Positions 53,201-56,200 of a DNA stretch of 64,000 nucleotides are shown here, piece after piece (within the stretch, counting starts at the first letter, position 1; every line of letters starts with the position of its first letter). Source of the DNA: Amphiura filiformis (Eukaryota; Echinodermata; Ophiuroidea; Amphilepidida; Amphiuridae); the NCBI RefSeq assembly GCF_039555335.1, contig NC_092639.1, positions 35,631,293 to 35,695,292 of the forward strand. The letters are read 5' to 3'. The position numbers and the translations under genes are program-made. Under the pieces are notes generated by a model, which saw nothing but the letters and a program-made list of their open reading frames with translations, had not been told where the DNA came from and made no database searches.

Positions 53201-56200
53201 ACCACTTTTAACTTCAACGGCCATTATTTCAATGTTCATTTTCTCGGTAAAATGACGATTTAGGTACACGATAAGTCAACAAAATACAGCATCTATAGGT
53301 AAGCATTTATGTTCATCGTAAAAAGCATGATCGACCTTTTTCTCATCTTTTTTCTCTATTTCCGATTTTAGGCATCATTTTGTGCAAATAGGCATTTTGA
53401 TGCCTTATATGGGCAATATCTCAAAAAATAAGGCCAATATAAAAAAACACACCCAAAAAACGGTTTTTGGAATTGAGCCTCCAGATTAAGAAAAAAACAA
53501 AAAATTTTGGAAAGAGTGTTTTTTCATTGATGTCTTGAAGTGTGGATAGTGGGTTCAAATTTTCACAGGGAACATCAAATGGATAAACGTTGATTTTGAC
53601 ATCTAGCAATGTCTAGAGCAAACTAACGTCAAGGCATAAACATCCTATACGTGATAGCAGGTGAATGGTAACAAATAGGGGTGCACTTTTTCATCTTTAA
53701 CACGTTTCTAGGGTGTGGACTGTAATGGACATGGCACACATTGTGCAGGTACCATCGGTAGCAATCCATATGGCATTGCTCGGCAAGCGTCACTCTTTGG
53801 AGTAAGGGTATTGGACTGTTTCGGGTATGGATCTACGTCAGATGTGATAGCAGGTAAATAGACTTATAAACAACAGATTTTTAAACCATTTGTTCTTTTG
53901 TCAATACTAAATTGCAGGGTCTTGACTGCAACGGTCATGGTACCCATTGCGCAGGCACCATTGGTAGCAACCCATACGGTATAGCTCGGGAAGCGTCACT
54001 CTATGGAGTAAGAGTGTTAGATTGTTTCGGATCTGGAGCCTATTCTGATGTGGTTGCAGGTGAATAGCCTCATAAACAGCGATAAATACTTTTAAAGAAA
54101 CAGAAGCTCAAGAAAATAATTAGTGTATTGACATTATTATTTTTTTTTACAATTCAGAATTCAACTCTGAATTCAGAATATCGCATTCATTGAAGCCTTA
54201 GGATGTGCACGATAATAGAATGATATTTTACAGAATGATATTTGACAGCGAAGGCAGTCGAGTTAGCTCAATCGATAAGGCGTTCGAGAGAGGTTGCGGG
54301 TTCGAACCCTGGCGGTGGTTTAGTACGCTCTCGTGGAAAATTGAGTTAGCTTGAAATTCCACTGGACAAGGAACTTACTGCTAATTGTTTCGTTGTAACC
54401 CGTACGAAACTCCGGGAGCTGATCCTGGTTGCGATGGTCATTTGTGGAATGTCTAGGGTGTGCGCTCTTGAAGCTGTCCCTGTGTTGTTGTTAAATGGTT
54501 TATGGAATGATGTGGTGCCGTAGTGGTCAGCGACAACCTGTAAAGTGCGATGAGGCCTGTGGATCAACGTCTAGGCGTCGTTGTGATTGTGCGTAGCGCA
54601 CTATAAATCACTGCGTTTTTCTTTATAGTAACGTGGTCTGTTGATATGCCTTTACTATATAGGGTGTGACTGGGTAGCAGAAAATGGCAAGCGTCCAGCT
54701 GTAGGATCTATGTCGCTTGGTGGCGGGGCATCTGAATCAATGGATCAAGCTATTCGTGGAATGCATAATTCAGGTGTGGCAGTCGCTGTTGCAGCTGGTA
54801 ATTCAGATGCTGATGCATGTCTCTACTCACCGGCTAGGGAACCATTGGTAAGATAAATGACCACAAGTGAACGCATATTTATCTGATGCAAAATTCGATG
54901 CTTTGCACTTCACTAGATAGAAATGGCGAGATTTTGTTTCCTTCCTAGGGCAAAATAGTAACATGTAAGAAACTGAAGCGACAAAAAAAAAAAGAATTTA
55001 AGTGTCTGAGACAGTATTAGCTGAATCTGTAGTAAAGGAGTAAAAATACCAGATTAGATTTCGTGATCTGCTTGCGCTTGAGATACATGTAATAGTTATT
55101 CCACGAGTGGCCTTCAGGCCACGAGTGGAATAAGTTACTTGTACCAGCCCAGAGTGATACATGGCAAAAGAGACCACTGTCTTGGCAACACATGTTATTT
55201 ATTACACTAAATGCTGGATGTTGACAATCTATGTTTACAAACATGCTGAGGTCATGGTTGTGTCCTAAAAGTATGAGGATGGTACAAGTAGTCTACCACG
55301 TCATGTGTTATGTCTGGAGCAGGTCATCTCTTTGGGTGGGTCTGTTTACTTTTTGAAGTATATACTAGAGGGTGGGACAAGTAATCTCCCATGTGACTAG
55401 TTATGTCTGGAGTGGGACATGGGAGTGGTACATGAGTTTTGACTCCACTCTAGACAGAGTGGTACTATGTAGTAAAATCACCAGGTATGGTACAAAAGAT
55501 ATTGTTAAAATGTAATGTCGAAGCAAAGATAACGACATTTGTACCATACCGGGTGATTTTACTGCCTAGTACCACTCTGTCTAGAGTGGAGTCAAAACCC
55601 ATGTACCACTCCCATGTCTCACTACAGACATAACAAGTCACATGGGAGATCACTTGTCACACCCTTTAGTATATTAACTTTAAAAATAAACAGACCCACC
55701 CAGAGAGTGGTCCTACTCCAGACATAACATTTGACATGGTAGACTACTTGTACCATCCTCATAACAGGTGTGCCCAGAGAGTGGTCCTTTTTTCAATTAA
55801 AATTTCCTAGTATTAACCTTACAACATGTAACCTCACAACAAGGGTTCCATGTGAGTGTATACTTTTAGGACATAACCATGACCTCAGTATGTTTGTAAA
55901 CATAGATTACTTGGCTAGAGTTTTGTCCTTGTAGAGTGCTCCTTTTTGCCATGTCTCACTCTGCCCTGGTACAAGTAACTTATTCCACTCGTGGCCTGAA
56001 GGCCACTCGTGGAATAACTATTACCCGTACCACAAATATGCGGTGTTAGTCATCTGGACGACAACCCTTTAGACATGAGATAAAACGTCCCAGTTCATCG
56101 TTAATGTATTTATTTATTTTACCTCCAACGTAGATGGGTGTGCTTATGAATGATCACTGACATTGACCTGTCAGGCTGTCACAATATTTATAACATCTAA

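Follow-up and report, generated by a model that had tools for sequence, protein, structure and literature searches.

Introduction

As published accounts describe them, tandem mutually exclusive exons are already well known, in enzymes as elsewhere, and the exchange of an exon within a catalytic domain has precedent. Exons 3A and 3C of ketohexokinase (KHK) are described as mutually exclusive, lie in the catalytic domain and give enzymes with different catalytic properties (PMC13296549). Exons 4a and 4b of vertebrate OGDH are tandem duplicated enzyme exons (PMC7969005), as are the two exons reported here, which we call exons 5a and 5b. For OGDH, exclusivity was shown by experiment to be enforced by a short intervening intron whose branch points lie too near the donor (PMC7969005), whereas for exons 5a and 5b such enforcement is only inferred. 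The OGDH pair, moreover, is reported to confer calcium sensitivity (PMC7969005), whereas exons 5a and 5b concern a substrate pocket.

KHK is a sugar kinase, unlike the protease encoded here. In the field of proteolysis, serpin-1 of Manduca has alternative exons for its reactive loop. Exon duplications and alternative splicing are likewise described as diversifying the insect protease inhibitor PpSerpin-1, where it is the inhibitor that is varied and not the protease (PMC12758981). A marine invertebrate enzyme with a duplicated exon is the oyster alternative oxidase, in which the copies of exon 10 have changed residues around the diiron motif and the isoforms shift under air exposure (PMC5589949). 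That exon is terminal, is chosen through an alternative 3' splice site and is not described there as mutually exclusive (PMC5589949). The closest relatives by sequence family, aqualysin I, keratinase 5wsl and proteinase K (all S8A), each have one loop sequence per solved enzyme. Here we describe a protease gene of this family with two versions of the exon that encodes both the catalytic His and a substrate loop.

Results

Gene model and enzyme family

The window, by which we mean the whole 64,000-nucleotide stretch of Amphiura filiformis DNA that was analysed, contains a protease gene on the plus strand; its intron structure and the repeats point to an animal host. Translation begins in exon 1 (44126-44233), which runs in frame to a GT donor and whose N-terminal residues, inspected by eye, resemble a signal peptide. 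Exon 2 (49631-49759) encodes part of an I9 propeptide, and exon 3 (50755-50887) covers the propeptide end and the start of the mature enzyme. The full set of catalytic elements is present: the Asp in the DTG box of exon 4 (51390-51502), the His in exon 5, the oxyanion-hole Asn region (AAGN) in exon 6 (54663-54847), which also encodes the SLGGG segment, and the Ser in the GTSMA motif of exon 7 (57035-57206).

The translated product matched Pfam PF00082 (Peptidase_S8) with E 4.9e-33 when exon 5b was used and 1.6e-32 when exon 5a was used, and the propeptide matched PF05922 (Inhibitor_I9) with 23.6 bits against a cut-off of 21.2. NCBIfam models gave matches only far below their cut-offs. Among the best 60 of 152 solved relatives were keratinase 5wsl (E 2.1e-86), aqualysin-1 (4dzt, E 3.1e-80), the extracellular serine proteinase 8c4z and proteinase K (1ic6, E 3.4e-58), with PCSK9 ranking behind the aqualysin/proteinase-K-type chains. 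Two cysteines of exon 5, along with cysteines of exons 6 and 7, align with cysteines of aqualysin-1, and we take the aqualysin-type disulfides to be 67-99 and 163-194; a third exon 5 Cys aligns with a Val of aqualysin-1. These matches identify the product, which appears to be secreted, as an S8A protease of the aqualysin/proteinase-K-like type that carries an I9 prodomain.

When the 5b form was used as the query in a scan of prokaryote genomes, 586 loci were confirmed, and the best 80, which bear bacterial titles, were used for the comparisons below. A scan of viral contigs with the protease returned 30 loci. The best segments of the protease encoded at 44126-57206 are 61-62% identical to bacterial proteins among the best 80 of the 586, and the animal gene may have come from bacteria long ago. 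Aqualysin-1-like transcripts are known from echinoderms, the name being used in the legend to a figure in a study of the sea cucumber transcriptome (PMC3299772).

A tblastn search that used the proteinase K C-terminus together with an invented motif found no C-terminal exon between exon 7 and position 64000. A profile of the C-terminal region was built from 66 bacterial loci (of the 80, 14 were dropped for having no motif or too few residues after it) and gave nothing credible past exon 7, the best match other than exon 7 itself having E 0.33. The missing exon may be located past 64000, or its sequence may have diverged too far.

Exon 5 is present as two adjacent copies

Exon 5a (53712-53853) and exon 5b (53918-54059), both on the plus strand, are separated by a 64-nt spacer intron (53854-53917). 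The initial annotation had described them as adjacent exons of 142 nt with phase 0 entry, phase 1 exit, GT-AG sites and an intact catalytic box, and the coordinates and phases were verified: each copy has an AG before it, a GT after it and an unbroken NGHGTHCAG box. The segment that corresponds to residues 100-104 of proteinase K reads GYGST in exon 5a and GSGAY in exon 5b.

The copies align without gaps and are identical at 112 of 142 bases. The best other placement of the exon in the 64-kb window reached 58 of 142 (mean 35.6, SD 5.1; starts 53501-54200 left out of the scan), and chance is no explanation for the likeness of the two copies. Neither tblastn with E up to 10 nor base identity revealed a third copy of exon 5 anywhere in the window. 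The 30 differing bases fall mainly at codon position 3 (22), with five at position 1 and three at position 2. They affect 25 of 47 codons, and our recount agreed with the 18 synonymous and seven amino-acid-changing differences counted earlier.

Either copy fits equally well between exons 4 and 6, as had been proposed, and exons 1 to 7 with exon 5a or exon 5b alone are open over 327 codons with no stop. The frame breaks, also as proposed, when both copies are joined (stop after 210 codons) or when neither is used (stop after 165 codons). The pair shows several features expected of mutually exclusive tandem exons: adjacent homologues of equal length and phase, intact splice sites, conserved coding sequence, and joint inclusion or joint skipping that is non-productive. 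We put the probability that exons 5a and 5b are used in a mutually exclusive manner at about three in four on this sequence evidence.

The introns that follow the two copies also resemble one another at their start, with 16 of the first 19 nt (53854-53872 and 54060-54078) matching. This match (P 0.013 in 1000 single-base shuffles) is closer than that at the synonymous sites, which are near saturation, and no significant match was found upstream of the two copies (shuffle P 0.63). The downstream match could represent either a splicing signal common to both introns or a trace left by the duplication.

Three of the seven replacements lie in the 100-104 substrate loop

In proteinase K numbering, the gap-free alignment places the differences between the two copies at 64, 87, 91, 101, 103, 104 and 108. 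In the proteinase K sequence used for the numbering, the length, Asp39, His69 and Ser224 came out right, and Ser101, Gln103 and Tyr104 agree with a published description (PMC1890553). Three of the seven differences, at 101, 103 and 104, fall within the five-residue segment 100-104, where exon 5a encodes Tyr101-Gly-Ser-Thr104 and exon 5b encodes Ser101-Gly-Ala-Tyr104. Residues 100-104 of proteinase K are reported to contribute to subsites S2-S4 (PMC5374539). The S4 site is described as sitting between segments 100-104 and 132-136, with Tyr104 as a flexible lid; positions 103 and 104 are among those of the S4 pocket at which related fungal enzymes differ, and at S3 the side chain of Ser101 is directed away from the substrate (PMC1890553).

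Of the best 80 of 586 bacterial relatives, 69 have Ser and one has Tyr at position 101; at position 104, Thr occurs in 22 and Tyr in 12. Exon 5b keeps the common Ser101 and the Tyr104 lid; exon 5a is without the lid and places a bulky Tyr101 at the S3 patch. From these residues the S4 site of the 5a form is predicted to be more open than that of the 5b form. If mutually exclusive splicing exchanges the whole module of catalytic His and S2-S4 loop, the gene could yield two proteases that differ in P4/P3 specificity and that are selected by tissue or stage. We advance this functional proposal tentatively, at a little under even odds.

The clustering of replacements in segment 100-104 gave P 0.018 for a loop that was chosen after seeing the data. 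With no loop named, the occurrence of any three of the seven replacements within four codons was not significant (P 0.23). The entropies at the differing sites are 3.11, 2.86, 2.14, 0.92, 1.82, 3.02 and 1.01, versus a mean of 0.71 at sites that the copies share. The replacements thus lie mostly at positions that are variable in the family, and they could stem from relaxed constraint just as readily as from selection for specificity.

The same entropies are in line with an alternative in which the exons are mutually exclusive but encode near-equivalent enzymes, the pair being kept for control of expression, for example through differing inclusion signals or through output tuned by unproductive splicing, and not for specificity. 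Thr and Tyr at 104 are both common in the best 80 of 586 relatives, and an on/off switch would be conceivable given the early stops that follow inclusion or skipping of both exons. Set against near-equivalence are the Tyr of exon 5a at a position that is Ser in 69 of the 80 relatives, and the Tyr/Thr change at 104, which like position 101 belongs to the substrate loop. We consider this alternative possible, if on the doubtful side.

Both copies appear to have been under constraint

By the Nei-Gojobori method, comparison of the two copies gave pS 0.62, dS 1.31, dN 0.082 and dN/dS 0.063. The bootstrap range of the ratio was 0.018-0.17 over the 1785 of 2000 replicates with a defined dS; with dS near saturation on 47 codons the ratio is rough, and its sign is clear. 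Because of the dN/dS of 0.063, neither copy looks long dead. The initial annotation had judged both copies to be old and constrained, rather than one being a decaying duplicate, and had named dN/dS between them as a check, which came out in favour of that judgement. In simulations of neutral change confined to one copy, the combination of no stop and at most seven replacements occurred in 3.3% of runs (0.033) after 15 changes and with a probability of 0.00075 after 20 changes. The two copies are also equally similar to bacterial relatives, with a mean of 29.06 identical residues out of 48 for each across the best 80 of 586; exon 5a was the closer copy in 25 of these, exon 5b in 31, and 24 were ties. 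The relatives were picked with the 5b form as the query, and any lean in this comparison therefore favours exon 5b.

Recent loss of function in one copy is possible because ten neutral changes on one copy left no stop and at most seven replacements in 49% of simulations. One exon of a long-functional pair would in that case be a recently silenced relic that is no longer spliced in this species, and current use is not readable from sequence alone. Against a relic speak the intact splice sites, reading frame, catalytic motif and cysteines of both exons, together with their equal mean similarity to relatives. We regard it as unlikely.

An assembly artefact, in which the exon of a paralogous gene or of a divergent haplotype was wrongly joined in, appears very improbable. 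Between the copies, 62% of synonymous sites differ, far above the usual allelic divergence, and the 16 of 19 shared downstream intron bases are as expected for a true tandem duplication. Taken together, the sequence supports an old, doubly constrained pair that is usable only one at a time.

The spacer between the copies is short

The 64-nt spacer, which has GT-AG ends, contrasts with lengths of 502-5397 nt for the other six introns of the gene. Its three best branch-point heptamers lie 57, 31 and 51 nt from the donor, and the candidates at 57 and 51 nt leave just 7 and 13 nt to the acceptor end. No candidate far from both ends of the spacer was found by the scorer, which used approximate weights and which appears unreliable here since it places the best site of exon 5a itself 11 nt from the acceptor end. 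In human OGDH, the branch points between exons 4a and 4b are reported at 25-41 nt from the donor, and a threshold of about 50 nt was proposed (PMC7969005). By analogy, a steric block of splicing from exon 5a to exon 5b is plausible, because the spacer is far shorter than the other introns and is without a well-placed branch-point candidate.

Many animals splice introns of around 60 nt, and the size of the spacer alone is therefore no proof of exclusion. A human intron of 56 nt is mentioned in the literature (PMC8363638). A weak donor at exon 5 was considered as well and set aside: position +5 is A at both exon 5 donors and G at the other six, but only this position stands out, and the totals for exon 5a (5.48) and exon 5b (4.73), calculated with approximate weights, are not the weakest and lie among those of the other donors, which span 0.86-8.8. 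Inclusion of both exons in one transcript, for which the usable-looking splice sites on each would allow, is the least credible alternative, since the frame breaks and the product would be without the catalytic Ser because of the stop after 210 codons.

Other features in the window

Intron 6 contains a large nested inverted repeat (55113-56000) with main arms of 49-137 nt that are 89-96% complementary, and it looks like a foldback mobile element. Further along the same intron, a tRNA-like match (56270-56331; Rfam RF00005, 33.9 bits) that was not called by ARAGORN is perhaps a tRNA-derived SINE; the tRNA and Rfam scans added nothing on the protease gene itself. A retroelement reverse transcriptase ORF lies on the minus strand at 62884-63681 (RVT_1, E 1.6e-24). 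On the plus strand at 40317-40856, a 179-codon ORF has a YVDD motif and matched nothing in Pfam with E up to 0.01; by that motif it is perhaps another reverse-transcriptase fragment. ORFs on the minus strand at 26639-28896, one of the two scanned having a sub-threshold match to the EamA transporter family, are perhaps exons of a neighbouring transporter gene. Positions 1-844 hold a repeat array, recognised by eye in the translations, with long ORFs open on both strands, and this region is not credible as a gene.

Discussion

We propose that exon 5 of a gene for a secreted S8A protease was tandemly duplicated long ago and that each mRNA carries either exon 5a or exon 5b. Splicing from exon 5a to exon 5b would be hindered by the 64-nt spacer, in which a branch point has hardly any space. 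A transcript with both exons or with neither would meet a premature stop and be removed by nonsense-mediated decay. The exchange would keep the catalytic His and the aqualysin-type cysteines while replacing the 100-104 loop. The preference at P4/P3 would change as a result, through an altered S4 lid and a different S3 surface.

The initial annotation had called the alternative choice of an exon with a catalytic residue unusual for subtilases; it had mentioned neither the substrate loop encoded by the exon nor the short spacer as a possible physical basis for exclusion. Consistent with its view, no subtilase with mutually exclusive exons was found among the papers listed in searches of the open-licence literature, as judged on titles and the starts of abstracts. 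What is new is the place of the proposed exchange, which takes in a protease's catalytic His along with its S2-S4 wall.

If the proposed reading is true, RNA splicing would be able to switch the specificity of a protease in the active site itself, with no need for a second gene. Such a gene would be the protease counterpart of the exon cassettes for reactive loops in serpins. Exons 5a and 5b also form a natural matched pair, with one scaffold and seven differences, for the residues that set S3/S4 preference in enzymes of the proteinase K type.
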